From Actinomycetota bacterium (GTDB lineage: Bacteria; Actinomycetota; Actinomycetes; Actinomycetales; Microbacteriaceae), in contig SXMG01000022.1 of the NCBI GenBank assembly GCA_005778835.1, positions 1-56,209 of the forward strand: 56,209 bases of DNA, given 5' to 3'. Shown here in pieces: positions 30,553 to 55,886 of the stretch. The position numbers and the translations under genes were made by a program. Each line of letters begins with the position of its first letter. Position 1 is the stretch's first letter. A model generated the notes under the pieces. The model saw only the letters and a program-made list of their open reading frames with translations, did not search any database and was not told the DNA's origin.

Positions 30553-31293
30553 ATGACGCGACCCCCCATGTCTGTGCAGCTCTACACGGTGCGCGACCAC
30601 CTCGAGGCCGACGCGGCCGCCACGATCGAGGCGCTCGCCGCGATGGGCTTCACCGCCGTCGAGCCCTTCGGCCTGCCGGACCTCGCCGCTCCCGTGCGCG
30701 AGGCGATCGCCGCCCACGGCCTCGCAACGCCAACGGCGCACGGGTCGATTCTGGCTCGCAGCGCCGAGACGCTGCAGGCCGCGACCGAGCTCGGAGTGCA
30801 GACGATCATCGAGCCGTACCAAGACCCTGCGCGGTTCAACGACCGCGAGTCGATCGCCGCCGTCGCCGCCGAGCTCACCGCCGCCGCCGAGGCCGCGGCC
30901 GTGCACGGCATCGCCGTGGGGTACCACAACCACGGCTTCGAGCTCAGCAGCTCGGTCGACGGTCAGCCCGCGCTGCTCGTGCTCGCCGAGCTCACCGACC
31001 CCCGCGTGGTCTTCGAACTCGACGCCTACTGGGCCGCCGTCGGCGGAGTCGACGCCGCCGAGATCGCCACGGCGCTCGGCGACCGGCTCATCGCCATCCA
31101 CGTGAAGGACGGCGACCCCTCGGGCACCGTCGAGCAGCAGGTGCCCGCCGGTCACGGCACGGTGCCCCTCGCCGAGGTGCTTGCCGCAGCACCGCACGCG
31201 CGCCCCGTCGTCGAGTTCGACATCATCCCCGGCGAGGGCCTCGACGCCATCGCCGCCTCGGCCCGCTGGGTCACCGAGCAGGTCGGCGCATGA
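30553..31293 (+). CDS. Sugar isomerase/epimerase-like TIM barrel (AP_endonuc_2 family)
   Basis: A 246-residue xylose-isomerase-like TIM barrel. Metal-ligand positions are suggested by TIIEPYQD, GYHNHGFEL (His), VFELDAYW (Glu, Asp) and VVEFDIIPG (Glu). Members act as sugar isomerases, epimerases or, when paired with Gfo/Idh/MocA enzymes, as lyases on 3-keto-glycosides. GGAGG lies 6 nt before the ATG. It leads a plus-strand operon with two Gfo/Idh/MocA genes and a second TIM barrel, and site A lies 40 nt upstream. The precise reaction is unknown. Confidence 0.85.
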   Translation: MTRPPMSVQLYTVRDHLEADAAATIEALAAMGFTAVEPFGLPDLAAPVREAIAAHGLATPTAHGSILARSAETLQAATELGVQTIIEPYQDPARFNDRESIAAVAAELTAAAEAAAVHGIAVGYHNHGFELSSSVDGQPALLVLAELTDPRVVFELDAYWAAVGGVDAAEIATALGDRLIAIHVKDGDPSGTVEQQVPAGHGTVPLAEVLAAAPHARPVVEFDIIPGEGLDAIAASARWVTEQVGA

Positions 31294-32399
31294 GCGGCCC
31301 CGTCGGCGTCGGCATCATCGGCGCAGGAGTCATCAGCACCCAGTACCTCGACAACCTCACCAAGGCTGGCGATGTCGCGGTGCACATGATCGCCGACCTC
31401 GACGTCGACCGCGCTCGCGCGCGGGCCGACGAGTACGGGGTGGCAGGCGCCGGCACGGTCGACGAGCTGCTCGCCCGCGACGACATCGAGATCGTGCTCA
31501 ACCTCACGATTCCGGCCGCGCACGCCCCCGTCGCGACGAGCTGCGTCGAGGCCGGCAAGCACGTCTGGACCGAGAAGCCCTTCGCCCTCGACCGCATCGA
31601 GGGCCAGCGACTGCTCGCCCTCGCAACCGAACGCGGCTTGCGGGTCGCCTGCGCCCCCGACACCGTTCTCGGCCCCGGCGTGCAGACCGCGCGGCGACTG
31701 CTCGAGCAGGGCGCGATCGGCGAGCCGGTGAGCGCCCTCACGATGTTCCAGGTCTCGGGACCGGAAGCCTGGCACCCGAGCCCCGAGTTCCTCTACGCCC
31801 GAGGCGGCGGCCCCCTCTTCGACATGGGCCCCTACTACCTCACGACGCTCGTGCAGCTTCTCGGCGCCTTCACGCGAGTGGATGCCCGCGGAACCCGCGC
31901 GCGTACCGAGCGCGTCATCGGCTCAGGCCCCAAGGCAGGCACGCGCTTCCCCGTCGAGGTGCCGACCAACGTCGCCGCCCTCTACGAGACCGCCGCCGGG
32001 CATGTCGCCCAGAGCACCTTCAGCTTCGAGTCGCCACTGCCGCGCGTCGGCGTCGTGGAGATCACGGGAACCGAGGGCACCCTCGTCCTGCCCGATCCGA
32101 ACGGCTTCGACGGCGAGATCGCGATCTGGCGTGCGGGCATGATGCCCGACGACGAGCCCGAGCGGCACGAGACGACGGGCCACGGCATGACGCGCGGACT
32201 CGGCGTGGTCGAGCTCGCGCGCGCGATCCGCGCGGGCGTGCCAGAGCGCGCGAGCGGCGAACTCGCCCTGCACGTGCTCGACATCATGCAGAGCACCGAA
32301 GAGTCGGCCGCCTCGGGCGAGCCGATCACTCTCACCACCACGGCCAGCACCGCGCCCGCGATGCCCGACGATCTCGACCCGTGGAAGGCGACGCTGTGA
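31290..32399 (+). CDS. Gfo/Idh/MocA family NAD(P)-dependent oxidoreductase
   Basis: A 369-residue sugar oxidoreductase. The Rossmann motif is GVGIIGAGVISTQY (residues ~5-18), the cofactor and active-site motif is AGKHVWTEKPFAL (Lys in EKP), and the C-terminal domain starts near GGGPLFDMGPYYL, where Asp takes the usual catalytic place and Tyr replaces the common His. It overlaps the preceding TIM-barrel stop by 4 nt (ATGA). Members oxidise or reduce pyranose hydroxyls, often at C3. The substrate is unknown. Confidence 0.9.
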   Translation: MSGPVGVGIIGAGVISTQYLDNLTKAGDVAVHMIADLDVDRARARADEYGVAGAGTVDELLARDDIEIVLNLTIPAAHAPVATSCVEAGKHVWTEKPFALDRIEGQRLLALATERGLRVACAPDTVLGPGVQTARRLLEQGAIGEPVSALTMFQVSGPEAWHPSPEFLYARGGGPLFDMGPYYLTTLVQLLGAFTRVDARGTRARTERVIGSGPKAGTRFPVEVPTNVAALYETAAGHVAQSTFSFESPLPRVGVVEITGTEGTLVLPDPNGFDGEIAIWRAGMMPDDEPERHETTGHGMTRGLGVVELARAIRAGVPERASGELALHVLDIMQSTEESAASGEPITLTTTASTAPAMPDDLDPWKATL

Positions 32400-33523
32400 C
32401 GAGCGGCCCTGCGCGAGTGACCGGTGGAGGCACTGTGCCTATGGTCGCCGCCACCCTGGTGGGCGGCGGCTTTATGGGCGAGGTGCACGCACGCGCGCTG
32501 CGCGCGGCGGGCATCCCGATCGTCGGTGTCGCCTCGTCGTCGGCGGCGAGCGCCGAGCGGGCCGCCGAGCGGCTGGGCATCGAGCGCGCCTACGCGAGCA
32601 CCGACGAGCTGCTCGCTGACGACACCGTGACCCTCGTGCACGTGCTCACCCCGAACGACACGCACGCTCCACTCGCGGCCGCCGCCCTGGCGGCAGGCAA
32701 GCACGTCGTGTGCGAGAAGCCCCTCGCGACCTCGAGCGCCGACGCTCGCGCACTCGTCGAGCAGGCCGCCACGACCGACCGCATCACGTCGGTGCCGTTC
32801 GTCTACCGCTTCCACCCCATGGTGCGCGAGGCTCGCGACCGCATCGCGCGCGGTGAGACCGGCCGTCTGCTCTCGGTGCAGGGCGCCTACCTGCAGGATT
32901 GGCTGCTCGCCGCCGACGACGACAACTGGCGCGTGGACGCCGCCTCGGGCGGGCCGTCGCGCGCCTTCGCTGACATCGGCAGCCACCTGTGCGACCTGCT
33001 CGAGTTCATCGCGGGCGAGCGCATCACGCGGCTCACCGCACGCACCCGCACGGTGCACGCCGAGCGAGGCGGGCACCCCGTCGCGACGGAAGACCTCGTC
33101 GGCGTGCTCGCCGAGCTCGAGGGCGGCGCGGTCGTGAGCCTGCTCGTCTCGCAAGTCGCGCCCGGCCGCAAGAACGGGCTCGTGCTCGAGCTGCACGGCG
33201 AGACCGAGAGCCTGCGGTTCGTGCAAGAGCGCCCCGAAGAGCTGTGGATCGGCCGCCGCCGCGAGAGCCTGCTGCAGCTGCGCAACCCCGACGAGCTGCA
33301 GGGCGACGCTGCGCGGTTGAGCGTGCTGCCGGCAGGGCATCCGCTCGGGTATCAAGACGCGTTCACGGCGTTCGTCGCCGACACCGTGCGATCGATTCGC
33401 GAGGGCGGCGCCGTGGATGCCCTCCCCGGGTTCACCGACGGCCTGCGAGCTGCCCAGCTCACCGAGGCCGTGCTCGACTCGTCGGCCCGCGACAGCTGGG
33501 TCGACCTGCCCGCCCTGACCTGA
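32396..33523 (+). CDS. Gfo/Idh/MocA family NAD(P)-dependent oxidoreductase
   Basis: A 375-residue sugar oxidoreductase, distinct from its neighbour. It has VAATLVGGGFMGEVHA as the Rossmann motif, AGKHVVCEKPLAT with the EKP lysine, and RAFADIGSHLCDLLEF with the catalytic Asp and His. The GTG at 32396 overlaps the previous stop (GTGA); a GTG at 32435 or ATG at 32441, after GGTGGAGG, would give a protein starting right at the Rossmann fold and is a credible alternative. Third gene of the plus-strand operon. Confidence 0.9.
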   Translation: MTSGPARVTGGGTVPMVAATLVGGGFMGEVHARALRAAGIPIVGVASSSAASAERAAERLGIERAYASTDELLADDTVTLVHVLTPNDTHAPLAAAALAAGKHVVCEKPLATSSADARALVEQAATTDRITSVPFVYRFHPMVREARDRIARGETGRLLSVQGAYLQDWLLAADDDNWRVDAASGGPSRAFADIGSHLCDLLEFIAGERITRLTARTRTVHAERGGHPVATEDLVGVLAELEGGAVVSLLVSQVAPGRKNGLVLELHGETESLRFVQERPEELWIGRRRESLLQLRNPDELQGDAARLSVLPAGHPLGYQDAFTAFVADTVRSIREGGAVDALPGFTDGLRAAQLTEAVLDSSARDSWVDLPALT

Positions 33524-33571
33524 CGCACCCGTCTCGAACACCGCCGTTCACCCCAGAAACGAGGAGCACCG

Positions 33572-34582
33572 ATGAGCACGCATCCTGTCACCCTGTTCAC
33601 CGGCCAGTGGGCCGACCTGACCCTCGAAGAGGTGGCCGAGCTCGCGGCAGGCTGGGGCTACGACGGCCTCGAGATCGCGGCCTCGGGCGAGCACCTCGAC
33701 GTGCAGCGCATCGTCGAAGACGACGCCTACCTCGCCGAGCGCAAGGCCATTCTCGATCGGCACGGACTGCAGCTGCACGCCATCTCGCACCACCTCGCGG
33801 GGCAGGCAGTGTGCGATGACCCCATCGACTTCCGGCACCAGGCGATCCTGTCGAGCCGGGTGTGGGGCGATGGCGAGGCCGAGGGTGTGCGCCAGCGTGC
33901 TGCTACCGAGCTGCAGTACGCCGCCCGAGCGGCACGGCGACTCGGTGTCGACACCGTGGTCGGCTTCACCGGCTCAAGCATCTGGCAGTACGTCGCGATG
34001 TTCCCGCCCGTGCCCGCCGAGCGCATCGACGAGGGCTACGCCGACTTCGCCCGCCGCTGGAACCCGATTCTCGACGTCTTCGACAGCGAGGGCGTGCGCT
34101 TCGCCCACGAGGTGCACCCCGGCGAGATCGCCTACGACTACTGGACGAGCGTTCGCGCCCTTGAGGCGATCGACCACCGCGAGGCCTTCGGCTTCAACTG
34201 GGATCCGAGCCACATGATGTGGCAGAACATCGACCCCGTCGGCTTCATCGTCGACTTCGCCGACCGCATCTACCACGTCGACTGCAAAGACACGCGGTTG
34301 CGCCCGCAGAACGGCCGGGCGGGCGTCATGGGCTCGCACCTGCCGTGGGGCGACCCGAAGCGCGGCTGGGACTTCGTCTCGACCGGGCACGGCGACGTGC
34401 CCTGGGAAGACTCGTTCCGCGCGCTCAAGGCGATCGGCTACGCGGGTCCCATCTCGATCGAGTGGGAAGACGCGGGCATGAGCCGCCTGCACGGCGCAGC
34501 CGAGGCGGTGCAGTTCGTGCGCTCGCTGCTGTGGGATCTTCCCGAGCAGTCGTTCGACGCGGCCTTCTCGAACCAGAGCTGA
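33572..34582 (+). CDS. Sugar isomerase/epimerase-like TIM barrel (AP_endonuc_2 family), possible 3-keto-glycoside lyase
   Basis: A 336-residue TIM barrel. The N-terminus reads WGYDGLEIAASGEHLD; metal ligands are suggested by FAHEVHPGEIAYDYW (Glu), FNWDPSHMMW (Asp), YHVDCKD (His) and ISIEWEDAG (Glu). GAGGAG lies 7 nt before the ATG. Length and motif pattern resemble proteins annotated as sugar phosphate isomerase that occur with Gfo/Idh/MocA oxidoreductases, including catalytic subunits of C-glycoside deglycosidases. No small partner subunit (DUF6379-type) is seen here. Last gene of the operon, convergent to the FAH gene. Confidence 0.85.
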   Translation: MSTHPVTLFTGQWADLTLEEVAELAAGWGYDGLEIAASGEHLDVQRIVEDDAYLAERKAILDRHGLQLHAISHHLAGQAVCDDPIDFRHQAILSSRVWGDGEAEGVRQRAATELQYAARAARRLGVDTVVGFTGSSIWQYVAMFPPVPAERIDEGYADFARRWNPILDVFDSEGVRFAHEVHPGEIAYDYWTSVRALEAIDHREAFGFNWDPSHMMWQNIDPVGFIVDFADRIYHVDCKDTRLRPQNGRAGVMGSHLPWGDPKRGWDFVSTGHGDVPWEDSFRALKAIGYAGPISIEWEDAGMSRLHGAAEAVQFVRSLLWDLPEQSFDAAFSNQS

Positions 34583-34613
34583 GCGGCGTCGCGGCGCAGG
34601 CGCGCAGGGCAGA

Positions 34614-35501
34614 TCAGCGCGGCGGCGCGAGCGTCTGCCGCTGCTCGCCCAGCCCGTCGATGCCGAGCGTCATGACGTCGCCCACGTTCAGGTAGGTCGG
34701 CGGCGTCATGCCGAGCCCCACGCCCGGAGGGGTTCCGGTGTTGATGAGGTCGCCGGGCTCGAGCACGAGGAATTGGCTCAAGTAGTGCACGATCACGAAC
34801 GGGTCGAAGATCATCGTCGAGGTCGACCCGGTCTGCCGCCGCTCGCCGTTGACGTCGAGCCACATGCCGAGCGCCATCACGTCGTCGAGCTCGTCGGGCG
34901 TCGCGAGCCACGGCCCGGCCGGGTTGAACGTCTCGGCCGACTTGCCCTTCGCCCACTGCCCGCCGCGCTCGATCTGGAACGCCCGCTCGCTCACATCGTT
35001 CACCACGACATAGCCGGCGATGTGCTCGCGCGCCTGCTCAGGCGAATCGAGGTAGCTCGTGCGCTTTCCGATCACGATGCCCAGCTCGACCTCCCAGTCG
35101 AGCTTCGTCGCGCCGCGCGGCATGATCACGTCGTCGTGCGGCCCGACGAGCGTGTTCGGGCTCTTCGTGAACAGAATGGGCTCGTCGGGCACGGCCATAC
35201 CCGACTCGGCCGCGTGGTCGGAGTAGTTGAGGCCGATGCAGAGAATCTGGTGCGGGCGGGCGATCGGCGCGCCGATGCGCTCGGCCGATCCGTCGGGCCC
35301 GACGAACGGATGCACGCTGCCGGCCGCGATGCGCTCAGCGACGACCTGCTCGAGACGGAGCATCCCGCCGCCGGTGGACGACGAACCGAAGAAGGCCTCA
35401 TCGAAGTCGGGCACGACGTCGCTGACGTCGACGTAGGAGGTCTCGTCAACCCGCACGACGGGCTTCTCGTGACCCGCGGGGCCGAGGCGCATGAGTTTCA
35501 T
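34614..35501 (-). CDS. Fumarylacetoacetate hydrolase family protein, 2,4-diketo-3-deoxy sugar acid hydrolase-like
   Basis: A 295-residue FAH-family hydrolase. The metal ligands are Glu137 and Glu139 in DWEVELGIVIGK and Asp169 in VVNDVSERAFQ; QWAKGKSAETFNPAGPWL and LINTGTPPGVGLGM follow. Together with LCIGLNYSDHAAESG, these match the branch that cleaves 2,4-diketo-3-deoxy-L-fuconate or -rhamnonate to pyruvate and L-lactate. The stop of the SDR gene lies 10 nt upstream. It is the last gene of the six-gene operon starting at 45742. The precise keto acid is inferred. Confidence 0.87.
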   Translation of the reverse strand: MKLMRLGPAGHEKPVVRVDETSYVDVSDVVPDFDEAFFGSSSTGGGMLRLEQVVAERIAAGSVHPFVGPDGSAERIGAPIARPHQILCIGLNYSDHAAESGMAVPDEPILFTKSPNTLVGPHDDVIMPRGATKLDWEVELGIVIGKRTSYLDSPEQAREHIAGYVVVNDVSERAFQIERGGQWAKGKSAETFNPAGPWLATPDELDDVMALGMWLDVNGERRQTGSTSTMIFDPFVIVHYLSQFLVLEPGDLINTGTPPGVGLGMTPPTYLNVGDVMTLGIDGLGEQRQTLAPPR

Positions 35502-35511
35502 GGGGTTCTTT

Positions 35512-36191
35512 CTAGTAGGTGGCGCGGCCGCCGCTGATGTCGTAGACGGCGCCGGTCGAGAAGCTCACCTTGTCAGACGTCAGCCACGCGACGAGCTCGG
35601 CCACCTCATCGGCGCGGCCGACTCGCTTCATGGGGATGAGGTCGGTGATGTACTGCAGCACGCCCGGGTCGGTCGTGGCGTTCATCGGGGTGTCGATGAC
35701 GGCCGGCGCGATGACGTTGACGAGCACGCCGGTCTGCGCGAGCTCTTTGCCGACCGACTTCGTGAGCGCGATGACGGCCCCCTTGGTCGCCGAGTAGGCG
35801 GCGAGGTTCGGGTTGCCGTCTTTGCCCGCCATCGAGGCGAAGTTGACGATGCGGCCCCAACCGCGCTCGACCATGGCGGGCGCGAACGCGCGGATGGTCG
35901 ACACCGTGCCCATGAGGTTGACGTCGACCGTGCGCCGCCACTCGTCAGGTGTGGTCTCGAGCAGGGGCTTGTTCGGCCCGACGATGCCGGCGCAGTTCAC
36001 GAGGATGTCGACGGCTCCGACCGCGGCCGCCATCGCCTGCACGGCCGCGTCGTCAGAGATGTCGACCTGCTGATCGGCCGCGTCAGAGAGATCGGCCGTG
36101 ATGACCTCGATGCCGTCAGCGCGCAGACGCTCGGCGGTCGCCGCACCGAGTCCGCTCGCGCCGCCCGTGATGAGCGCGCGCCGAGCGCCGG

Positions 36192-36195
<4 letters not shown>
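35512..36195 (-). CDS. SDR oxidoreductase, likely 2-keto-3-deoxy sugar acid dehydrogenase
   Basis: A 227-residue classical short-chain dehydrogenase: LITGGASGLG cofactor motif, NCAG, catalytic Ser in NFASMAGKDG and YSATK. The short spacing after the cofactor Asp (ITADLSD) suggests NAD preference. Located directly before the FAH gene, it fits the dehydrogenase that oxidises a 2-keto-3-deoxy sugar acid at C4, giving the substrate of the FAH enzyme. It begins with a GTG overlapping the upstream stop (GTGA). The step is inferred from context, not from sequence alone. Confidence 0.88.
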
Positions 36196-43632
<7,437 letters not shown>

Positions 43633-45742: not shown

Positions 45743-45764
45743 CAGGGGTCCTCACAGGTAGGCT

Positions 45765-45779
45765 TTACATCATACCTAA
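45765..45779 (-). promoter_or_regulatory. Shared TATGAT operator-promoter, site B
   Basis: TTACATCATACCTAA on the plus strand; read leftward it contains TATGAT (45774-45769) as -10 for the GH36 operon. It lies in the 76-bp space between divergent GH36 and Gfo/Idh/MocA genes, so one bound regulator could control both. Its first 14 bases are identical to site C. Confidence 0.65.
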
Positions 45780-45818
45780 GGGTCCAGGCCCACCGCACTC
45801 TTCTCAAGGGAATCCACC

Positions 45819-46925
45819 GTGGCATCCACTCCTCCTCGATCGACCCCTGACGTGCTGCGCGTCGGCGTCGTCGGCCTCGGCTACGCCGGCACCACCCACC
45901 TGACCTCGTTCGCTGGCATCCCCGGCGTGCAGGTCGTGGCGCTCGCCGGTAAAGAGACCGATCGCCTGGCCCTGCTCGGCGCCGAGTACAACCTGCCCCA
46001 CCTCTTCGAAGACTGGGAAGAGCTCGTGGCCCTGCCCGACCTCGACATCGTGAGCATCGCGACACCCAACGCGCTGCACCACCCCATCGCCGTCGCGGCG
46101 CTCGCTGCGGGCAAGCACGTCTTCTGCGAGAAGCCGCTCGCCCTCGACACCGCGCAAGCCGCCGAGATGGTGCAGGCCGCGAAGACCCACGACCGCGTGC
46201 TCGAAGTGGCGTTCAACCACCGGCGCCGCGCCGACGTGCAGTTCGCCCGCCGCTACCTCGAGACCGAGGGCATCGGGCGCATCTACCACTCGCGCGCGAC
46301 GTGGAAGCGCCGCTCGGGCATTCCCGGCCTGCGCTCGTGGTTCACGAGCAAGACCATGGCCGGCGGCGGGGCGCTCATCGACCTCGGGCCGCACGTGCTC
46401 GACTCGCTGCTGTTCCTTCTCGGCGAGCCGCGCGTCGTCGCGGTGAGCGCCGTGACGCACGGCGAGTTGGGCCGCGCGGGCTACGGCGCCATGAACCGGC
46501 AGGAGCAGATGGCCTCCGACACGGGCAGCTTCGAGGTCGAAGACCTCGCGAGCGCGCTGTTCCGGCTCGACGACGGCTCGAGCGTCGCCTTCGAGATCAC
46601 CTGGGCCGGTCACACCGTCGACGACGAAGACATCTCGATCGAGCTGCTCGGCGTCGACGGCGGAGTGCGCCTCTTCGTGCCGCGCTATGCGAGCGACGAC
46701 ACGCTTCGCATGTACCGCGACGTCGACGGCGTCGCGGTGACGCTCACGCCCGAGGTGCACGTGCCGGGCGGCGAGCATCCGATCGTCATCGCGGAGTTCG
46801 TCGAGGCCGTGAGGGGCGGCGACTGGGATGCCCACCGCGGCGACTTCGCCCTGCACCGCACCGCCGTGCTCGACGCCTGCTACCGCTCGGCCGACGAGGG
46901 CAGAGAGGTCAGACTGGAGTCATGA
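45819..46925 (+). CDS. Gfo/Idh/MocA family oxidoreductase (ThuB-like)
   Basis: A 368-residue sugar oxidoreductase with [17 protein letters not shown] at the N-terminus, [13 protein letters not shown], and [16 protein letters not shown], where Asp and His are in the catalytic positions. The start is a GTG with AAGGG 8 nt upstream. It is followed with a 4-nt overlap by a ThuA-like gene; such ThuA/ThuB pairs oxidise disaccharides to 3-keto derivatives in rhizobia. It is divergent from the GH36 operon. The substrate is inferred to be an oligosaccharide or glycoside from this locus. Confidence 0.9.
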
Positions 46926-47680
46926 CAACCCCTGCTCAGGCACCCCTGCGCGTGACGGTCTGGAACGAGAACCGTCACGAGAACTACCCCGACTCGCTCA
47001 CCGCCAAGTTGTATCCGACGGGGATGCATGGCGCGATTGCCGAAGGGCTGACCGAGCTGCTCGGCGACTCCGTCGAGGTGCGCACCGCGACGCTCGACGA
47101 GCCCGAGCACGGGCTGCCGCAGTCAGTGGTCGATGCGACCGATGTGCTGCTGTGGTGGGGCCACGAGGCGCACCCCGAGGTCGACGACGCGGTCGTCGAG
47201 CGGGTCTACGACGCGGTGCTCGGCGGCATGGGCATCATCGTGCTGCACTCGGGCCACTACTCGAAGATCTTCAAGAAGCTCATGGGCACGAGCTGCTCGC
47301 TGCGCTGGCGCAACGACGGCGACCGCGAGGTCGTGTGGACGGTCGACCCGACCCACCCGATCGCCGCCGGCGTGCCCGACCCGCTCGTCATCGAGGCGCA
47401 GGAGATGTACGGCGAGTTCTTCGACATCCCCACCCCCGACGAGCTCATCTTCATCTCGTCGTTCACGGGCGGCGAGGTGTTCCGCTCGGGCGCGACGTGG
47501 ACTCGCGGCCACGGGCGCGTCTTCTACTTCTCGCCGGGCGATCAGGAGTACCCCGTGTATCAGCACGCGGGCATCCGTCGCGTGATCGCCAACGGCGTGC
47601 AGTGGGCCGCCCCCACCCGCCGGGGCCCCGCGATCGACGCGACGTTCCACGAGCGCGGCTGGTTCGACGGCGCGCAGTAG
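46922..47680 (+). CDS. ThuA-like protein
   Basis: A 252-residue ThuA domain protein with a glutamine-amidotransferase-like fold. Family marks: [10 protein letters not shown] at the N-terminus, [37 protein letters not shown], and [16 protein letters not shown] near the C-terminus. It has no signal peptide. ThuA proteins accompany Gfo/Idh/MocA enzymes in sugar oxidation loci, including trehalose and sucrose utilisation, but their exact reaction is not settled. The ATG at 46922 overlaps the previous stop (ATGA). It is followed by a strong hairpin. Confidence 0.88.
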
Positions 47681-47690
47681 CGAGAACGGA

Positions 47691-47730: not shown

Positions 47731-47752
47731 CGTCGTTCTTCGGCGTCGCGCC

Positions 47753-48604
47753 TTAGCGGCTGACGCCGACCTGCAGCCCCTGCATGACGTACTTCGACGC
47801 GAAGATCAGCAGCAGCAGGGGCACAGAAGCGGTGATGAACAAGCCTGCCGACACCAACGGCTGATCGGTCAAGAACCGAGTGCCGATGCTGGCGAGTGTG
47901 GGTGTGAGCAGCTTCATCGACTGTTCGGGAATGAGGATGAGCGCCCAGAGCAGCTCATTCCAGACCCCGAGAAACTGCAAGACCGCCAGGGTGGCGATGC
48001 CGCTGGAACCCATGGGCATGACGATCGACCAGAGCGTGCGGAAGAAGCCTGCGCCATCGATGCGCGCGGCCTCGATCACCTCGACCGGAATACCTCGGAA
48101 CGAGAGCGACAGGAAGAACACCGCGAAGGGCAAGGCGCTCGACACGTAGACGAGAATCAGCCCCCAGTAGTTTCCGACGAGGCCCAAGCGGGCCAGCATC
48201 ACGTAGGTCGGAATGATGAGGACCGCGCCTGGAATGAGCATGAGCGATACGAACGCGGCGGTCGCGTACTTGGCCCCCGGCACCGGGTACTTCGCGAGGG
48301 CGTAGCCCGCGAGGGTCGCCAGAATCAGCACGAGTGCGATCGTGACGACGGCGACATACAAACTGTTCAAGAAGGCTTGACCGACGCCGTACGACTCGAG
48401 GAGGCGCAGGTAGTTGTCGAACGTCCACTCCCCCGGCAGGCCGAACGGGTCTCGCAGATAGTCGACGTTGGGTCGCGCCGAGGTGATGATGACGAAGTAG
48501 AGCGGGTAGACGATCGAGATCGCCACGAGCGCCAAGACGATGAACACCGGCCCGTTCGCGCGTCCTGACGTGAGGCGCTTGCTGATGATGGTGTCTTCCG
48601 CCAT
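47753..48604 (-). CDS. CUT1 ABC sugar transporter permease (MalG type)
   Basis: A 283-residue inner-membrane permease with about six helices and the EAA loop EVIEAARIDGAGFFRTLW near residue 170. The start lies 2 nt after the stop of the partner permease. Third gene of the second CUT1 uptake operon, which has no ATPase gene. Its partners and shared regulation suggest import of the glycan fragments handled by the surrounding glycosidases. Confidence 0.92.
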   Translation of the reverse strand: MAEDTIISKRLTSGRANGPVFIVLALVAISIVYPLYFVIITSARPNVDYLRDPFGLPGEWTFDNYLRLLESYGVGQAFLNSLYVAVVTIALVLILATLAGYALAKYPVPGAKYATAAFVSLMLIPGAVLIIPTYVMLARLGLVGNYWGLILVYVSSALPFAVFFLSLSFRGIPVEVIEAARIDGAGFFRTLWSIVMPMGSSGIATLAVLQFLGVWNELLWALILIPEQSMKLLTPTLASIGTRFLTDQPLVSAGLFITASVPLLLLIFASKYVMQGLQVGVSR

Positions 48605-48606
48605 GG

Positions 48607-49560
48607 TCAGTCCTCCTCCTGCAACTTGAACACCTTGTTCTGCAGCAGGGTCAAGATGCCGATGAACAGGAACAGCATGACGGCGAGCGCCGCCCCCGAA
48701 CCGAGATTGGAACTCGAGAAGGCCCTCAAGTAGACGAGGTAGTCAATGGTGGTCGTGTCATACCCGGGCCCTCCGGCGGTCATGACGAACACGAACCCGA
48801 AGAGACCGGTGAAGGTGTAGATCACGTTGATGATGAAGACGAAGCCCAGCACGCGCCGGATGTTCGGGAGGGTGATGTACCAGAGCCTCTTCCACCAGCC
48901 AGCGCCGTCGATGGCGGCAGCTTCGAAGACGGCGGGGTTGATCGCGGTGAGGCCGGCGAACAAGAGCAGCGACATGTAGCCGAAGCCCGACCACACGAGG
49001 GCAAGAATGATGATGGCAATGGCGAGATTGCCGTCGGTGAAGAACTCCACCGGTTCGATGCCGAAGAGCCCCAGGGCTTGATTGACGCCGCCGTAGTAGC
49101 CGAAGGCGTTGCGGAACATGATGCCGATGACGGCCACCGAGAGCACGTTGGGCAGGAAGAAGATGACGCGGAAGAACTTCCACCCGCGAACCCGCTCGAA
49201 GAGCAGGATCGAGACGACGACCGCGATGAAGATGACGAGGGGAATGGCGATCAGGAACTTCAGGTTGTTGAGGAACACCTGCTGCACGATCGGGTCTGTC
49301 GCCATCGCGATGTAGTTCTCGAACCATCGCCATTCGAAGGTCAAGCCGTTCGTTCGCGTGAACGAGATGAAGAAGGCGAACGCGATCGGATACGCCGAGA
49401 AGGTCACGACGAGCAGCAGCGCGGGGAGCACGGCGAGCAGGCCGATGACCCGATCCTTCTTGTGAAGGGCCCCGGGCCGGCGGGGCTTCGCAGACGGGTC
49501 CCCGCCCGTGGGTGCCGCCGAAGCGGCACCCACGCGCGAGGTCAGAGACGCAATGCTCAC
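48607..49560 (-). CDS. CUT1 ABC sugar transporter permease (MalF type)
   Basis: A 317-residue inner-membrane permease. A polar N-terminal stretch of about 35 residues precedes the first helix (LLAVLPALLLVVTFSAYPI), and the EAA loop reads VFEAAAIDGAGWWKRLWYI near residue 215. It starts with a GTG overlapping the binding-protein stop (GTGA). Codon and sequence differ clearly from the first CUT1 system at 11-14 kb, so this is a separate transporter. Confidence 0.92.
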   Translation of the reverse strand: MSIASLTSRVGAASAAPTGGDPSAKPRRPGALHKKDRVIGLLAVLPALLLVVTFSAYPIAFAFFISFTRTNGLTFEWRWFENYIAMATDPIVQQVFLNNLKFLIAIPLVIFIAVVVSILLFERVRGWKFFRVIFFLPNVLSVAVIGIMFRNAFGYYGGVNQALGLFGIEPVEFFTDGNLAIAIIILALVWSGFGYMSLLLFAGLTAINPAVFEAAAIDGAGWWKRLWYITLPNIRRVLGFVFIINVIYTFTGLFGFVFVMTAGGPGYDTTTIDYLVYLRAFSSSNLGSGAALAVMLFLFIGILTLLQNKVFKLQEED

Positions 49561-50888
49561 AGGTTCGCGATCTCCTGCTCGTACGACGCCTGCAACTGAG
49601 CCACAGCATCCTCAGGAGAGAGGGTGCCCAAGAACACAGCTGCGTTGACCCGGTAGAACAGGTCGATCGTCGCCTGCGGCATGACGCTGTCGAAGGCGAA
49701 CACGATGCCATCGGTCGAGGCAGCGAGCTGCTCGAACTGCTCCCGCAGCAACGGGTTCTGAATCTTCGAGGGGTCACCGTCAGGGTGGTTGGAGCCCTGC
49801 GTCTGGTAGATCTCGACGAAGACATCCTGGTTGGCCGGGTCGGCCAGGAACTCGAGGAACTCGACAGCGAGCTCCTTGTTCTCCGAAGCCTCGGTGATCG
49901 AGATGGCGATCTCCGGTCCACCAGCACCCATGAGGGGGAAGTCCGCTCCCTCGAGCGTCGGGATGAAGAACGAGCTCACGTTCCCCTCACCGAAGCCTTC
50001 GAGCATGAGGTTGTTCTCCCAGCTGCCGACGACGTAGTAGGCCGCGCCACCTTCGAGGAAGAGAGGTGCGCCGCCGCCGCCGAGTGACCCGGCGTCGGGG
50101 TTGGTGAGGCCACTCGCACCCCACGCGGCGAAGGCTTCGTAGGCCTTGACCATGGCGGGGTCGTCGACGCGAATCTCACCGGCGAACATCTCGGTGAAGA
50201 CCGTCTCGCCGAGCTCACCGCCGACCATGGCGCTGATCACCCAGGCGCCGACGTAACCCTCGAGGTTGGCGACGGAGAAGCCGACTGCGTCGGTGTTGTC
50301 GACGACCTGCTGACCGTTCTCCATCAGCTCTTCCCACGATGCCGGGCGGTCTGCAGGGTCGAGACCGGCCTCTTCCAGAATCGCGTGGTTCTGGAAGACC
50401 GTGAAGAGGTTGCCCGCGCCGTAGGGCATTCCGAGAATGCGACCGTCAGGAGCAAAGCCCTCTCGGTTCACGTTGAAGCCCGCGAGCGAGTCGAGGGTCT
50501 CCTGCGAGAGCAGCGGCTCGAGGTCGATGAAGAAGTCTGCGAACGAAATGGTCGGACCGCCCGCGTACTGCACGCGGATGTCGGGACCGGTGCCGGCGAT
50601 CGACGCCGCCTGGAACGCAGCGCTGTTCGACGTGATGTCGCCGCCCTGCTGGGCGGTCGTGATCTCCACGCCGGGGTTCGCCTCTTCGAAGGCCACGGCC
50701 ATCCGGTCGAGGAACGAGTTCTCGAGGTCAGGCTCGCCGTTCTCGAGGGTCCGCCCGAGGATACCGGTGTCCCAGATCAGGAGCTCCTGGGTCCCTCCCT
50801 CTGCGGGAGTCGCCGGGGCGCACGCGGTCATGCCGACCATGACGCCCGCCGTGAGGAGCGCCAGCGCTCCTGCCTGTCGTTTCTTCAT
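49557..50888 (-). CDS. Sugar-binding lipoprotein of the second CUT1 transporter
   Basis: A 443-residue family 1 solute-binding protein. The signal peptide MKKRQAGALALLTAG... leads to a lipobox-like MTAC with Cys23 as lipid site. The mature protein starts TPAEGGTQELLIWDTGI, then LEDSFLDRM-type helices and ITTAQQGG. GGAAGGA lies 7 nt before the ATG. An upstream 73-codon open frame (51106-50885) ends overlapping this ATG. Operator site C lies about 270 nt upstream, so the 5' untranslated region is unusually long for this window. Confidence 0.92.
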   Translation of the reverse strand: MKKRQAGALALLTAGVMVGMTACAPATPAEGGTQELLIWDTGILGRTLENGEPDLENSFLDRMAVAFEEANPGVEITTAQQGGDITSNSAAFQAASIAGTGPDIRVQYAGGPTISFADFFIDLEPLLSQETLDSLAGFNVNREGFAPDGRILGMPYGAGNLFTVFQNHAILEEAGLDPADRPASWEELMENGQQVVDNTDAVGFSVANLEGYVGAWVISAMVGGELGETVFTEMFAGEIRVDDPAMVKAYEAFAAWGASGLTNPDAGSLGGGGAPLFLEGGAAYYVVGSWENNLMLEGFGEGNVSSFFIPTLEGADFPLMGAGGPEIAISITEASENKELAVEFLEFLADPANQDVFVEIYQTQGSNHPDGDPSKIQNPLLREQFEQLAASTDGIVFAFDSVMPQATIDLFYRVNAAVFLGTLSPEDAVAQLQASYEQEIANL

Positions 50889-51106: not shown

Positions 51107-51152
51107 CGTCCCGTTTCTCCGTACCGAGGCGTGAGCCCCGTGGGTGAAGCCA

Positions 51153-51167
51153 TTACATCATACCTAG
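51153..51167 (-). promoter_or_regulatory. Shared TATGAT operator-promoter, site C
   Basis: TTACATCATACCTAG on the plus strand, 14 bases identical to site B; read leftward it gives TATGAT (51162-51157) as -10 for the transporter operon beginning at 50888. Confidence 0.65.
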
Positions 51168-51197
51168 AGTCGCGTTGCACAAGCCCGGATACGAAAT

Positions 51198-51232
51198 CGT
51201 TACCGCGCTGGCGCCTCTTCTCGGTGGTAACG
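51198..51232. repeat. Inverted repeat CGTTACC/GGTAACG
   Basis: Perfect 7-bp arms at 51198-51204 and 51226-51232, 21 nt apart, the right arm running directly into the TATGAT of site D. With a centre-to-centre spacing of 28 bp, it could be a paired half-site or a separate operator. Confidence 0.5.
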
Positions 51233-51243
51233 TATGATCTAAA
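51228..51243 (+). promoter_or_regulatory. Shared TATGAT operator-promoter, site D
   Basis: TAACGTATGATCTAAA; TATGAT (51233-51238) is the -10 reading rightward into the enolase-superfamily gene at 51337. On the opposite strand it contains TTAGATCATACG, matching the TTASATCATAYS core. Confidence 0.6.
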
Positions 51244-51336
51244 GGTGCATCGCGCAGTGGCGGTCACGGGCTGGTGCCCGACTCTCCACGCAGAGAGCAC
51301 GCATCCCCTGACCATTGCGAAGGCGGCATACGGCAC

Positions 51337-52536
51337 ATGATCATCGATTCCGTCGACTTCTTCTACGCTTCGATGCCCGAGGTCACCCTCGAGGCGGATG
51401 GCAGTCAGGATGCCCTCCTCGTCCGAGTGGTCGCTGATGGTCAGGTCGGCTGGGGTGAGTGCGAGGCCTCGCCGCTCACCTCGATCGCCGCCTTCGTGGC
51501 GCCTCGCTCGCACGGCGTCTGCCAGCCGGTCGCAGCATCCGTTCTGGGTGAGAGGCTCGACGGCCCCGACGACATCGAGCGCATCGCGCAGCTGGTCGGG
51601 CGCAACAGCCTCGACCTGCTGCAGGCCGGGCACACCTGGTCGGGCATCGAGATCGCGCTGTGGGATCTGCTCGGCAAGGTGCGCGAAGAACCCGTGTGGA
51701 AGATGCTCGGCTACACCGAGAACCACGCCAAGCTGCCGTACGCCTCGATGCTCATGGGCGACACTCCGCAAGAGACCCTCGACCGTGCGCGCCTGGCCCG
51801 CACGAACGGCTTCCGCGCCGTGAAGTTCGGCTGGGGCAGCTACGGCACCGGCAGCGCGGCCGACGACGCCGACCACGTGGCCGCCGCGCGCGAGGGCCTC
51901 GGCGACGACGCGCAGCTGCTCATCGACGCCGGTCAGATCTGGGGCGACGACGTCGACGCAGCGATCGCGCGGCTCGAGGCGCTCGAGAATGCGCGCGCGA
52001 CGTGGCTCGAAGAGCCCTTCGTGCCGCACGCCTTCGTCGCGCACGCCGCCCTCGCCTCGCGGGCCCGCACCGTCGGCATCGCCGGCGGCGAAGGCGCCCA
52101 CACCGTGCACATGGCCACCAACCTCATCGACTACGGGGGCGTGCGCTTCATCCAGGTCGACGCCGCGCGCATCGGCGGCATCGGTCCGTCGAAAGCCGTC
52201 GCCGAGCACGCGGTGCGGCACGGCGTGACCTACGTCAACCACACCTTCACCTCGCACCTCGCGCTCTCGGCCTCGATGCAGCCCTTCGCCGGTCTGGCCG
52301 ACCACCGCATCTGCGAGTACCCGGTCGAGCCCAAGCCCGTGGCCCTCGCCATCTCGAGCAACCACATCCTGCTCGACGCCAACGGCGAGGTGCGGGCACC
52401 CGACGCGCCCGGTCTCGGCATCGAGGTCGACCTCGCAGGCCTCGTGCCCTACCTGCGGCACGTCGAGATCTCGATCGACCACGAGCGCGTCTACACGAGC
52501 CCCGAGGTGCCGCATAAGGTGAGTGCAGTCGTCTAG
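51337..52536 (+). CDS. Enolase-superfamily sugar acid dehydratase (mandelate racemase/muconate lactonizing type)
   Basis: A 399-residue member of the enolase superfamily. The barrel shows AVKFGWGSYG (Lys163), metal ligands Asp197 in LLIDAG, Glu225/226 in WLEEPF and Glu252 in AGGEGAHT, then Asp275, and His302/His307 in YVNHTFTSH. Such enzymes remove water from sugar acids to give 2-keto-3-deoxy acids. It starts at the ATG at 51337, giving MIIDSVDFFYASMPE; earlier codons lie in untranslated sequence. It heads the regulator-containing operon, and its likely place is between the SMP-30 lactonase and the SDR/FAH steps. The exact acid is unknown. Confidence 0.88.
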   Translation: MIIDSVDFFYASMPEVTLEADGSQDALLVRVVADGQVGWGECEASPLTSIAAFVAPRSHGVCQPVAASVLGERLDGPDDIERIAQLVGRNSLDLLQAGHTWSGIEIALWDLLGKVREEPVWKMLGYTENHAKLPYASMLMGDTPQETLDRARLARTNGFRAVKFGWGSYGTGSAADDADHVAAAREGLGDDAQLLIDAGQIWGDDVDAAIARLEALENARATWLEEPFVPHAFVAHAALASRARTVGIAGGEGAHTVHMATNLIDYGGVRFIQVDAARIGGIGPSKAVAEHAVRHGVTYVNHTFTSHLALSASMQPFAGLADHRICEYPVEPKPVALAISSNHILLDANGEVRAPDAPGLGIEVDLAGLVPYLRHVEISIDHERVYTSPEVPHKVSAVV

Positions 52537-52554
52537 GCACAGGGAGGCTGGCGT

Positions 52555-53322
52555 ATGGCGGAGATCGCCAGTGAAGTCGATCGCGGCGCAGGCTACGCGA
52601 TGCGCGGCCTGCAGGGCCGCGTCATCGACGGCGTCGGCCGCCAGATCATCGGCGGCCAGTACGCCCCCGGCGACCTGCTGCCGAAAGAGGCCGAGCTCAC
52701 CGAGCAGTTCGGCGTCTCTCGCACCTCGGTGCGGGAGGGCATGCGCGTGCTGGCGGCCAAGGGGCTGGTCGACATCCGTCAGAAGATCGGCACCAAGGTT
52801 CGCCAGCCCGAGAACTGGAACGTCTTCGACAGCGACATCCTGCGCTGGCACAGCGAGGTCGGGCACGGCGACGAGATCATGCGAAACCTCGTCGAGGTTC
52901 GGCAGATCATGGAGCCCGCCGCTGCTCGTCTCGCCGCGGGGCGGGCGTCGATGGACGACCTGCGCCGCATGGACGATGCTCTCGCGGACATGGTCGCGAT
53001 GGCGACTGATCGCGAAGGCTACGCGCACGCCGACGTCGAGTTTCATCTCTCGGTCTACGCCGCCTCGCACAATGTGCTGCTGCGGCAGTTCGGCAGCGTC
53101 GTCGCCGACTTCATGTATGCGTCGTTCAATGTGCAGCAGGCGACGGCGGCCGACGACGAGGTCTTTCTCGAAGACGCCGCGACGCATGCCGCGGTGTTCG
53201 AGGCGATCAACCGTGGCAACGGCGAGAAGGCGGCCGAGGCCATGCTGCACGTCGTGCTCGACGGCAAGAACGCCCTCATCAAGGCCCTCAGCGACCAGCG
53301 CGATGTCGCGTCGTCGGGCTGA
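52555..53322 (+). CDS. GntR-family regulator, FadR subfamily, proposed regulator of the glycan locus
   Basis: A 255-residue regulator. The winged helix is LPKEAELTEQFGVSRTSVREGMRVLA (split about residues 43-68), followed by VFDSDILRW, a linker seen in sugar-acid regulators such as DgoR, and an FCD domain with metal residues suggested by HADVEFHLSVYAAS and DAATHAAVFEAI. It lies 18 nt after the dehydratase gene. By analogy with DgoR-type proteins it would sense a sugar acid or keto-deoxy acid from this pathway. It is the only regulator gene in the 30-56 kb block, so it is the best candidate for binding the four shared TATGAT sites. Confidence 0.9.
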   Translation: MAEIASEVDRGAGYAMRGLQGRVIDGVGRQIIGGQYAPGDLLPKEAELTEQFGVSRTSVREGMRVLAAKGLVDIRQKIGTKVRQPENWNVFDSDILRWHSEVGHGDEIMRNLVEVRQIMEPAAARLAAGRASMDDLRRMDDALADMVAMATDREGYAHADVEFHLSVYAASHNVLLRQFGSVVADFMYASFNVQQATAADDEVFLEDAATHAAVFEAINRGNGEKAAEAMLHVVLDGKNALIKALSDQRDVASSG

Positions 53323-53340
53323 CGCCTCGAAGGCAACGGG

Positions 53341-54270
53341 ATGACCGCTCAGCCGGCCGTGCGCCTCGAGCGCGGCGGCATCAGTGCGGTCGTACTGCCC
53401 GACGAGGGTGGCGTGCTCGCCGAGCTGCTCGTGCACGGTCGACCGGTGCTCGCCGCCACCCCCTGGGCTTCGACGGTCGTGCCGTCGGCGAGACCCGCAG
53501 TCTCTGAAGCCGCCTGGGTCGAGGGCTGGCGGGGCGGGTGGCAGCTGTGCTTTCCGAGCGCGGGGCAGCCGAACCCTGCGGCGGCCGTGCTCGAGGGCTT
53601 CCACGGCGCGGCATCGCAAGCCCCGTGGCTCGAGGTCTCGCGTGCCGCCGACACCGTCGCGCTCGGGTGGGCCGACCATGACGGCCTGAGCGCCGAGAGG
53701 CTCTGGCGGCTCACCGACGACGGGGTCGCCGTCGCCACACGCGCGCGCAACGCGGGGCCCGAGTCGCGCGTGCTCGTCATCGCCGAGCACCTCATTCTGG
53801 GCGGCGACGTGCTCGCCGGCCCGCTCTCGCTCGAGGTGCCGCCGACCGCGCTGCTGCGGCCGCTCGACTACGCTGGCCTGCCCGAGGGCTCGCCGACGAC
53901 CTGGCCGGGCGACCCGGCCGACCGCTGGACGTCTGTCGACCGCGCGACCCCGGCCCGCGTCACCGGGCTCATGGGCGTGCAGCCCCAGCGCATCGGCGCG
54001 CGCGGCGAGCACGTCGAGGTGCTCGTCGAGTGGCAGGGCTCGGCCCTGCCGCACGCGCTGCTCTGGGAGGAGCTCGGCGTCTCGACCGAGCACCCCTGGA
54101 ACGGGCAGGTGCACGCACTCGGCATCGAGCCCACGTCGACACCCCACGGCGCGGGCACCGCGCTCGACTCGTCGCTCGTGCGGCTCGCCCCGGGCGGCAC
54201 GCTCGAGTGGGGCGTCTCGCTCGGTGTGCGGTGGGCATCCGTCGCCACACCCCCTCAGGAGGCATCATGA
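53341..54270 (+). CDS. Aldose 1-epimerase-like mutarotase
   Basis: A 309-residue beta-sandwich protein of the galactose-mutarotase superfamily. The N-terminal RLERGGISAVVLPDEGGVLA is typical, EGWRGGWQLCFPSAG takes the place of the usual NPSAGGN-like loop, and LEGFHGAA carries the conserved His. The expected job is anomer interconversion of the free sugar before dehydrogenation. It starts 18 nt after the regulator and overlaps the next SDR gene by 4 nt. Sequence motifs are weaker than in GalM, so a related carbohydrate-binding role is possible. Confidence 0.82.
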   Translation: MTAQPAVRLERGGISAVVLPDEGGVLAELLVHGRPVLAATPWASTVVPSARPAVSEAAWVEGWRGGWQLCFPSAGQPNPAAAVLEGFHGAASQAPWLEVSRAADTVALGWADHDGLSAERLWRLTDDGVAVATRARNAGPESRVLVIAEHLILGGDVLAGPLSLEVPPTALLRPLDYAGLPEGSPTTWPGDPADRWTSVDRATPARVTGLMGVQPQRIGARGEHVEVLVEWQGSALPHALLWEELGVSTEHPWNGQVHALGIEPTSTPHGAGTALDSSLVRLAPGGTLEWGVSLGVRWASVATPPQEAS

Positions 54271-55007
54271 CCGCACTCTCGTCACCGGCACCGCTGCGCA
54301 CCATCGTCACAGGCTCGGCCAACGGCATCGGGGCGGCGATCGCCGAGCGTCTGCGGGCGCGCGGCGACCGTGTCGTCGGGCTGGACCGCGAAGACGGTCA
54401 GGATGTCGTGCTCACCGACCTCGCAGACCCCGAGGCTCGCGCGTACGGCGTCGCGCTCGCGACCGAGCGGCTCGGCGGCGTCGACGTGCTCGTCACGGTC
54501 GCGGGCATCTTCCGTCAGGGTTCCATTCACGACAGCGGCTTCGACGACTGGCGGGCGGTGTGGGCCGTGAACCTGGATGCTCCGCTCGACCTCATGCGCC
54601 TGCTCACGCCCGGCATGGTCGAGCAGGGCTTCGGCCGCATCGTGACGATCACGAGCGTGCACGCTCGGCAGGCTCAGCCGGGGTGCCTCGCCTACGACGT
54701 GTCGAAGGCGGGGCTCGAGGCGGCGACGCGGTCGGCGGCCCTCGACCTCGCCCCTCACGGAGTGCTCGCCAACGCGGTCGCCCCGGGCTTCGTGCGCACG
54801 CGCATGAGCCTGCTGCCCGACGGCAGCGACGAGACCGACACTGATGCATTCCGTCAGCAGTATGTGGCGAGCGGCAAGCTGCCGCTCGGTCGTGGGGCGC
54901 TGCCCTCTGAAGTGGCTCCGGCTGTCGAGTTCCTCTCCGCCCGCGAGAACACCTATATCACCGGCCAGGTGCTGACCGTCGACGGCGGTCTCACCATGAC
55001 GTTCTAG
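54267..55007 (+). CDS. SDR oxidoreductase, likely sugar 1-dehydrogenase
   Basis: A 246-residue classical short-chain dehydrogenase: VTGSANGIGAAIAERL cofactor motif, VTVAG in place of NNAG, catalytic Ser in ITSVHARQ, and YDVSK (Tyr, Lys). The ATG at 54267 overlaps the mutarotase stop (ATGA) and follows AGGAGG. Standing between a mutarotase and a lactonase, it fits best as the first pathway enzyme, oxidising the sugar at C1 to a lactone. The other SDR at 35512 would then be the 2-keto-3-deoxy acid dehydrogenase; the roles could be swapped. Confidence 0.88.
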   Translation: MTALSSPAPLRTIVTGSANGIGAAIAERLRARGDRVVGLDREDGQDVVLTDLADPEARAYGVALATERLGGVDVLVTVAGIFRQGSIHDSGFDDWRAVWAVNLDAPLDLMRLLTPGMVEQGFGRIVTITSVHARQAQPGCLAYDVSKAGLEAATRSAALDLAPHGVLANAVAPGFVRTRMSLLPDGSDETDTDAFRQQYVASGKLPLGRGALPSEVAPAVEFLSARENTYITGQVLTVDGGLTMTF

Positions 55008-55016
55008 GGGTGCATC

Positions 55017-55886
55017 GTGATCATCGAGGGCCTGGGTTTTCCTGAAGCGCTGCGCTGGCGCGACGGCGCGCTGTGGTTCAGCGACATGTTCCGCTCACGC
55101 GTGGTGCGGTGGGTGCCGGGGTCGGAGCCCGTCACCGTGCTCGATGCCGCCAGCGGCGGGCCGACCGTGCCCGGCGGGCTCGGGTGGCTGCCCGACGGGC
55201 CCGATGGTCGAGGTGACCTGCTCGTCGTCGACTGCGAGCAGCGCCGCGTGCTGCGGGTGCACGGCGGCGCCGTCTCGGTGCACGCCGACCTCGCCCCGCT
55301 CATCACGCATTCCGCGAACGACATGCACGTCGACGCCGACGGCACGGCCTGGGTCGGCGGGTACGGCTTCGACCCCGAGCACGATGAACCGGTGCCCTCG
55401 CCGCTCGTGCGGGTCGACGCCGACGGGGCGACCTCGGCCACAGCATCCGTCTTCGTCTTCCCGAACGGATGCGAGCGCGACGCCACCGGCACCCTGCTCG
55501 TCGCGGAGACCTTCGCCGACCGTGTGTCGCTGATGTCACGTGACAACGCCGTCACCCAGCGCGCACGGTTCGAGCCCGGCAGCGGGCCCGACGGCCTCTC
55601 GATCGCGCCGGACGGCACCGTCTATGTGGCACTCGCCTTCGCGGGCGCCCTCGCGCGCCTCACTCCGCTCGAACAGGGTCCGGATGCTCCTGCCCAGCTC
55701 GTCCATCGCGCCGAGCCCCTCGCCGACGGGCCCGGCGCCGGGCCGCTCGGCATCTACGACTGCGCCGTGCACCCCGACGGCCGCCGCATCGCCGTCGCGA
55801 TGGCGAGCCTCGACGAAGCGCTCGCCGAGCGCGTCGACACCGGCCGCATCGTTCTGCTGGACCTGCCCCTGCCCGCTCTGCCCTGA
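55017..55886 (+). CDS. SMP-30 family sugar lactonase
   Basis: A 289-residue six-bladed propeller of the SMP-30 family. Metal residues are suggested by GLGFPEALRW (Glu), HSANDMHVD (Asn), VFPNGCERD (Asn) and SGPDGLSIAPDG (Asp). The start is a GTG 9 nt after the SDR stop. In this operon it would hydrolyse the lactone produced by the SDR to the open sugar acid used by the dehydratase. It is only distantly like the SMP-30 protein at 24382. Confidence 0.88.
   Translation: MIIEGLGFPEALRWRDGALWFSDMFRSRVVRWVPGSEPVTVLDAASGGPTVPGGLGWLPDGPDGRGDLLVVDCEQRRVLRVHGGAVSVHADLAPLITHSANDMHVDADGTAWVGGYGFDPEHDEPVPSPLVRVDADGATSATASVFVFPNGCERDATGTLLVAETFADRVSLMSRDNAVTQRARFEPGSGPDGLSIAPDGTVYVALAFAGALARLTPLEQGPDAPAQLVHRAEPLADGPGAGPLGIYDCAVHPDGRRIAVAMASLDEALAERVDTGRIVLLDLPLPALP

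Follow-up and report, generated by a model that had tools for sequence, protein, structure and literature searches.

A putative GntR/FCD regulon in a Microbacteriaceae genome which may join hydrolytic, oxidative and non-phosphorylative steps of sugar catabolism

The subject of this work is a run of 20 genes at positions 30553–55886 of contig SXMG01000022.1 (GenBank assembly GCA_005778835.1), a stretch of 56,209 nucleotides from a freshwater bacterium of the family Microbacteriaceae which was analysed as a whole and is called the window. Judged from its sequence, the locus is very probably a real, co-regulated catabolic unit. The best explanation, to which a probability of about 0.7 is given, is a regulon under a GntR/FCD regulator for the use of one oligosaccharide, with one operator seemingly tying hydrolysis and 3-keto elimination to a non-phosphorylative acid route. 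Gene content, a shared motif, joint presence and absence in related genomes and conserved residues in two of the enzymes carry this reading, and every reaction in it is a prediction. It yields a short gene list, with a widespread propeller protein and a dioxygenase among its members, for a single sugar of bacteria from freshwater and the phycosphere.

The source is a draft genome (2.47 Mb, 168 contigs, 81% complete), the nearest named relatives of which are Microbacteriaceae metagenome-assembled genomes, one of them labelled Microcella; its genus name is presumed. The original prediction, made from the letters alone, had listed about 20 genes, and the list held. All are uninterrupted by internal stops (scripted check), and 18 were assigned by Pfam above its cut-offs: two AP_endonuc_2 TIM barrels, three Gfo/Idh/MocA proteins, an FAH protein, two SDRs, GH2, GH38, GH36, ThuA, two ATP-binding cassette (ABC) permeases, a binding protein, an MR/MLE protein, a GntR/FCD regulator and an SMP-30 protein. 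The other two are a gene with a mutarotase fold and a propeller for which no known family had been claimed and none was found. Uptake by a CUT1 transporter, likewise foreseen, is borne out for the binding protein and two permeases, but a transporter ATPase was not found by Pfam among the 20 genes. For MRMLE (51337) and GH38 (43632) the most probable starts, read by eye, are not those of the longest frames. A scan with Rfam gave no match at gathering thresholds. The genes are as follows.

30553..31293, plus strand: TIM1, putative 3-keto-glycoside beta-eliminase of AtOGE type (Pfam AP_endonuc_2, PDB 8BVK)
31290..32399, plus strand: GFO1, Gfo/Idh/MocA sugar oxidoreductase (Pfam, NCBIfam)
32396..33523, plus strand: GFO2, Gfo/Idh/MocA sugar oxidoreductase (best NCBIfam model levoglucosan dehydrogenase, 177 bits against a cut-off of 650)
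33572..34582, plus strand: TIM2, TIM barrel like 2-hydroxy-3-keto-glucal hydratase (PDB 2ZDS, 8RO4)
34614..35501, minus strand: FAH, putative 2,4-diketo-3-deoxy-aldonate hydrolase (PDB 8GSR, NF053535, His/Glu dyad)
35512..36195, minus strand: SDR1, putative 2-keto-3-deoxy-aldonate 4-dehydrogenase (SDR family; still paired with FAH after relocation)
36192..37490, minus strand: PROP, beta-propeller of no known family, probably an enzyme (predicted model, weak fold matches)
37487..40579, minus strand: GH2 of LacZ type (Pfam, NCBIfam, GNEA motif)
40576..43632, minus strand: GH38, alpha-mannosidase family (Pfam; GHAHID and PDSFG motifs)
43679..45742, minus strand: GH36, divergent, the Asp of KLDFN kept
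45819..46925, plus strand: GFO3, Gfo/Idh/MocA (nearest PDB entry DgpA, 143 bits)
46922..47680, plus strand: ThuA (Pfam)
47753..48604, minus strand: ABC permease 2 (Pfam, NCBIfam)
48607..49560, minus strand: ABC permease 1 (Pfam, NCBIfam)
49557..50888, minus strand: solute-binding protein (Pfam)
51337..52536, plus strand: MRMLE, putative MR/MLE acid-sugar dehydratase (Pfam, PDB 2HZG)
52555..53322, plus strand: GntR/FCD regulator, which presumably binds the motif (Pfam)
53341..54270, plus strand: mutarotase-fold gene, aldose 1-epimerase fold (DUF4432 below cut-off; fold matches 3NRE, 3K25)
54267..55007, plus strand: SDR2, putative aldose 1-dehydrogenase
55017..55886, plus strand: SMP-30, putatively of aldonolactonase type (Pfam)

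The motif TTASATCATA occurs in four exact copies in the window (30497, 45765, 51153 and, on the minus strand, 51242), all before or between the operons of the locus. With one mismatch allowed 0.14 copies are expected by chance, and none of 100 shuffled sequences reached four.

30497..30510, plus strand: operator-like site TTAGATCATATGAT, before TIM1; the same motif is ahead of TIM1 in the genomes G314, G307 and G309
45765..45778, plus strand: operator-like site TTACATCATACCTA, between GH36 and GFO3, kept in relatives
51153..51166, plus strand: operator-like site before the transporter operon
51229..51242, minus strand: operator-like site before the MRMLE operon, 76 bp from the 51153 site; similar pairs are found in relatives

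In its 14-base form the motif has six sites in the genome, the four of the window and two outside, and the reversed pattern used as control has none. The outside sites lie before a GlcD-type FAD/Fe-S oxidase gene (contig 41) and a second GH36-like gene, GH36b (contig 58); a one-mismatch copy is found directly ahead of the start of a PhyH-family dioxygenase gene on contig 88. On this evidence the predicted regulon extends past the window to these three genes, the GlcD-type one of which would encode a 2-hydroxyacid dehydrogenase, so that the boundaries first drawn do enclose the 20 genes but are too narrow for the regulon. The GntR/FCD protein, whose gene adjoins MRMLE also in G290, G189, G301, G314, L037 and L039 (G denotes genomes, L loci), presumably binds the motif. 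Independence of all the sub-operons is rejected by the motif data.

The distribution of these genes was followed in 26 genomes of the genus, the source genome included, with presence called at the thresholds used. The longer motif was found in 14 of them (3 to 7 sites each) and in none of the other 12; the reversed control gave nothing in all 26. MR/MLE and PROP are present in exactly the same 14 genomes, and the GlcD-type oxidase (13 of the 14), PhyH (11) and GH36b (11) are likewise absent from the other 12. Identical sets of 14 in 26 would have a probability of 1e-7 if the genomes were independent, a value which overstates the case because they are related. Stronger support comes from units which have moved: in G304, G305, G313 and G189 the main locus has neither PROP nor SDR1-FAH, which are found elsewhere, each led by the motif. 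GH36b is preceded by it in all six genus stretches read (G304, G305, G313, G314, G316, G312). The single apparent regulator of the original prediction thus receives support from the promoter regions of the locus, from the shared genomes and from the moved units. Of the 299 genomes of a family-wide sample 3 have PROP, source genome included.

Beyond the genus, all 20 genes recur in G290, a genome of another genus (1.5 Mb, 54% GC), with 39–75% identity and 18 of them in the same order, TIM2 and FAH having moved. The search for syntenic loci which had been proposed as a check was therefore positive, and because the whole set recurs it is more than a chance grouping. Relatives of PROP numbered 297 confirmed, of which 80 loci were kept. 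Partial gene sets occur in Microbacterium kunmingense (L029), Microbacterium sp. T2.11-28 (L031), Salinibacterium soli (L037) and Pseudactinotalea suaedae (L039); as the named strains of M. kunmingense, S. soli and P. suaedae carry parts of the locus, a search for the sugar in culture is feasible. Nineteen loci beyond the genus (L023–L040, L078) were scanned for the motif, which is present in L029, L037 and L039 among others; L032 matches a looser pattern only, and it was not found in the stretches scanned of L028, L031, L033–L036, L038 and L040. A gene for an IclR-type regulator lies between PROP and SDR1 in M. kunmingense (L029:11317-12114), for which reason a second regulator may act there. 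In two distant relatives a gene coding for an MGH1-like glycoside hydrolase domain (PF22422) is found in or near the locus (L022:2566-3960, L040:15154-17883). In L038, labelled Spirochaetales, a GH36 gene and genes for ABC permeases immediately precede PROP. GH127 and WbsX-like genes are close by, and none of the acid-route genes was matched within that 21 kb stretch.

In the proposed pathway, the CUT1 transporter would import the oligosaccharide, and GH36, GH38, GH2 and probably PROP would trim it by hydrolysis. GFO3-ThuA and TIM1-GFO1-GFO2-TIM2 would open glycosidic bonds by oxidation at C3, beta-elimination, hydration and re-reduction. One aldose so released would be burnt without phosphorylation, passing from the mutarotase to SDR2 as aldose 1-dehydrogenase, SMP-30 as lactonase, MR/MLE as dehydratase, SDR1 as 4-dehydrogenase and the FAH hydrolase, which would give pyruvate and a 2-hydroxyacid; the latter would be oxidised by the GlcD-type dehydrogenase of the same regulon. 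The conjunction of hydrolytic and oxidative chemistry in one unit, already seen in the original prediction, is supported.

Several findings weigh against this reading. The genus counts are not corrected for descent, and a single gain or loss could yield part of the match. An exact site lies directly ahead of only 3 of the 14 GlcD-type genes (those of G000 and G311 and one of two in G301); a fourth, in G307, directly follows TIM2 within a motif-led run. Before PhyH an exact site is found in 7 of 11 genomes. A weak match to an L-lactate dehydrogenase subunit (22–32 bits) was also obtained with the Fe-S half of the GlcD-type protein, and the neighbours of PROP in Bacteroidota are not steady. TIM2, present in 13 of the 14 motif genomes, is also found in 3 of the 12 without the motif, and the 11 TIM1 promoters in view divide into four with the exact motif, three with one mismatch and four with none.

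These last counts bear on an unlikely alternative, namely that the neighbourhood houses two pathways. One would be a core regulon serving a single glycan (transporter, GH36, GH38, GH2, PROP, GFO3-ThuA and the acid route), the other a TIM1-GFO1-GFO2-TIM2 cassette which handles unrelated glycosides and joined the core only in some genomes. Of the 11 genus stretches in which a TIM1 promoter is in view, 7 have the cassette apart from the core, and no TIM1-GFO1-GFO2 was found in the stretches of L029, L030, L031, L037, L039 and L078. Yet the motif, within one mismatch, precedes TIM1 in 7 of the 11, including three genomes with the module elsewhere, and in G290 and L032–L035 core and module lie side by side. 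Membership of the module in the regulon is therefore variable. Its four genes are all present in 10 of 13 genus stretches, the window included; of the remainder, G305 ends inside GFO1, G309 ends before TIM2, and a second copy in G301 consists of TIM2 and GFO2 only. The GFO1 of G307 (L152:4321-5395) matches in two adjacent pieces, possibly a frame break or an assembly error.

As to its chemistry, TIM1 has its best PDB match in 8BVK (75 bits), an entry named in PMC10628242 and on that ground taken as AtOGE. By motif and near-matching spacing, in place of a structure alignment, His132, His134, Asp163, His189 and Glu233 of AtOGE correspond to H125, H127, D157, H183 and E221 of TIM1, which would thus act on 3-keto-glycosides as a beta-eliminase. 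TIM2 matches 2ZDS, labelled a putative DNA-binding protein, with 509 bits and 8RO4, 2-hydroxy-3-keto-glucal hydratase, with 144 bits.

The mutarotase, SDR2, SMP-30, MR/MLE, SDR1 and FAH together make up, by enzyme class and at family level only, a full non-phosphorylative Route III. The predicted model of the gene at 53341–54270 (six sequences; mean predicted local distance difference test score, pLDDT, 79.4) matches aldose-1-epimerases, best 3NRE (E 8.5e-15) and also 3K25. FAH carries the His/Glu dyad (HAAE at 96–99); against NF053535 it scores 327 bits, below the cut-off of 500, and its nearest PDB entry is 8GSR, an L-2,4-diketo-3-deoxyrhamnonate hydrolase, with 254 bits (the next 167). A GlcD-like FAD/Fe-S dehydrogenase gene, motif-led in the source genome, follows FAH in L023 and L030, and G290 has a different, FAD-only GlcD protein between TIM2 and FAH. 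Such a dehydrogenase would complete Route III beyond pyruvate and the 2-hydroxyacid, and its gene is indirect evidence for these predicted products. As the nearest named relatives of the GlcD-type protein are glycolate oxidase and D-lactate and D-2-hydroxyglutarate dehydrogenases, D-lactate or glycolate may be guessed as the product, and hence a D-6-deoxyhexose or a pentose as the sugar oxidised. A D-configured 6-deoxyhexose is put forward tentatively; a pentose such as L-arabinopyranose is somewhat less likely.

The same FAH match would suit L-rhamnose or L-fucose, broken down to L-lactate as in the known Route III, which according to the available text ends with the same two enzyme classes (PMC6336799, PMC11199699). 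This is improbable: the relatives of the regulon dehydrogenase point elsewhere, SDR1 has a leucine at the position of Arg148 of L-KDF dehydrogenase, three residues before the catalytic tyrosine (read by eye), and no fucosidase or rhamnosidase family is among the Pfam-assigned genes, PROP having no assigned family. A plain heteroglycan of galactose and mannose, much as the original prediction had it, would be oxidised by way of D-galactonate and yield D-glycerate. The family names GH36, GH38 and GH2 suggest it, and galactonate dehydratases are found among MR/MLE proteins. The MR/MLE protein of the locus reaches 93 of 311 bits, however, far under the galactonate dehydratase cut-off, and a heteroglycan of this kind is very doubtful. 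Galactose and mannose normally have no need of a diketo hydrolase and a GlcD step; the GlcD-type dehydrogenase suggests a sugar which Route III would cleave to a 2-hydroxyacid of the kind of D-lactate or glycolate, and for such a step plain galactose or mannose has no obvious use. Naming the sugar through the dehydratase failed. The nearest PDB entry, 2HZG (539 bits), has a record name which states no function, and four plasmid neighbourhoods of relatives with 44–63% identity were uninformative: those of Cereibacter and Martelella are alike, and none resembles the locus beyond a transporter, SDRs and a GntR gene.

PhyH opens another view of the substrate. The targets could be O-methylated sugars of cyanobacterial or algal mucilage from which the dioxygenase strips the methyl group, a quite unlikely case. 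PhyH is confined to regulon genomes, mostly behind an exact site and in the source genome behind a one-mismatch site, and M. kunmingense, which carries part of the locus, was isolated attached to Microcystis according to the available text of PMC10978784. Against this, PhyH enzymes catalyse many reactions, the regulon carriers G301, G307 and G309 gave no PhyH match, and the one sugar demethylation met with in the literature search uses a P450 (PMC10033563, as far as its available text goes).

PROP, foreseen as a propeller of no known family, had no match in Pfam (scanned within a longer frame) or NCBIfam, and its PDB sequence match is at chance level (E 0.4). A model built on 38 sequences, the window and 37 of the 80 loci, has a mean pLDDT of 92.5. 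Its fold matches are weak (GalNAc deacetylase, GH130, GH43 and sialidases): among the best 50, the template modelling score is at most 0.46 on the length of PROP, with 7–12% identity, and a viral fold library gave generic propellers. The 102 invariant columns of the 38-sequence alignment suggest an enzyme, and identity between the source actinobacterium and aligned Bacteroidota and KSB1 members is 54–62%. Since its neighbours in Bacteroidota vary, PROP can work without this pathway. Naming it through these neighbours failed, the commonest neighbour cluster being found in 7 of 60 loci; with Pfam on 74 of 115 immediate neighbours, at most five share one family (PIG-L). Plasmid records held no relative at E 1e-10. 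From sequence and model, PROP most likely acts on carbohydrate and lies outside the families of the libraries used (Pfam, NCBIfam and PDB; CAZy not compared). That it founds a new carbohydrate-active enzyme family and acts on a linkage of some rare sugar which the regulon oxidises, O-methylated perhaps or of D-6-deoxy type, is rather doubtful.

Flanking the locus at 25291–30376 are luciferase-like, beta-lactamase-family, dienelactone-hydrolase-like, alpha/beta hydrolase, NUDIX and acyl-CoA dehydrogenase genes. Some have relatives which adjoin the relocated SDR1-FAH (G304, G305, G313) and TIM1 (G314, G307, G309), and this suggests a repeated landing place. An ABC ATPase gene starts at 55954–56209, close to where the contig ends, but loses its likeness after 46 codons, midway through the Walker A motif; the end of the contig is apparently chimeric. 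In G301 a start which by eye resembles that of the truncated ABC ATPase lies past TIM1, on the opposite side of the locus.

A literature search found no description of this combination, which is not proof that it is unpublished. The TIM/GFO module is in itself a known kind of operon, with a motif tie in 7 of the 11 promoters in view. The locus would thus join known chemistries in a combination not found described, with possibly one new enzyme family. With the propellers of GH43, GH130 and sialidases PROP shares, by weak match, the beta-propeller fold, but it lacks a sequence family match. ThuAB is a trehalose and sucrose oxidation system, and as there ThuA adjoins a Gfo/Idh/MocA gene in the locus; the ThuA-Gfo pair is present also in both plasmid regions examined. 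The glycoside 3-oxidation pathway of Bacteroides reportedly employs Gfo/Idh/MocA 3-dehydrogenases. To the NCBIfam models of that pathway, BT_2158 and BT_2159, matches of the locus are weak (22–43 bits against cut-offs of 750 and 650). A non-hydrolytic glucoside operon of Agrobacterium encodes, according to the available text, the four enzymes GlycDH, Gfo, AtOGE and AtHYD for oxidation, elimination, hydration and reduction (PMC10628242). The genes at 30553–34582 resemble it in having two sugar-isomerase-like TIM barrels, an eliminase and a hydratase by likeness, with oxidoreductases in one operon. They differ in that both oxidoreductases are Gfo/Idh/MocA by Pfam, neither having been compared with GlycDH itself, and in that hydrolases and an acid route go with the module. 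Route III has been described for L-rhamnose, L-fucose and pentoses (PMC6336799, PMC11199699), and in the available accounts it has in common with the locus the dehydrogenase, dehydratase, SDR and FAH classes with a transporter and a regulator alongside. The locus departs from it in an MR/MLE protein which belongs to an unassigned group, that of 2HZG, an SDR1 without the Arg148 of L-KDF dehydrogenase and a GlcD-type dehydrogenase in the putative regulon.

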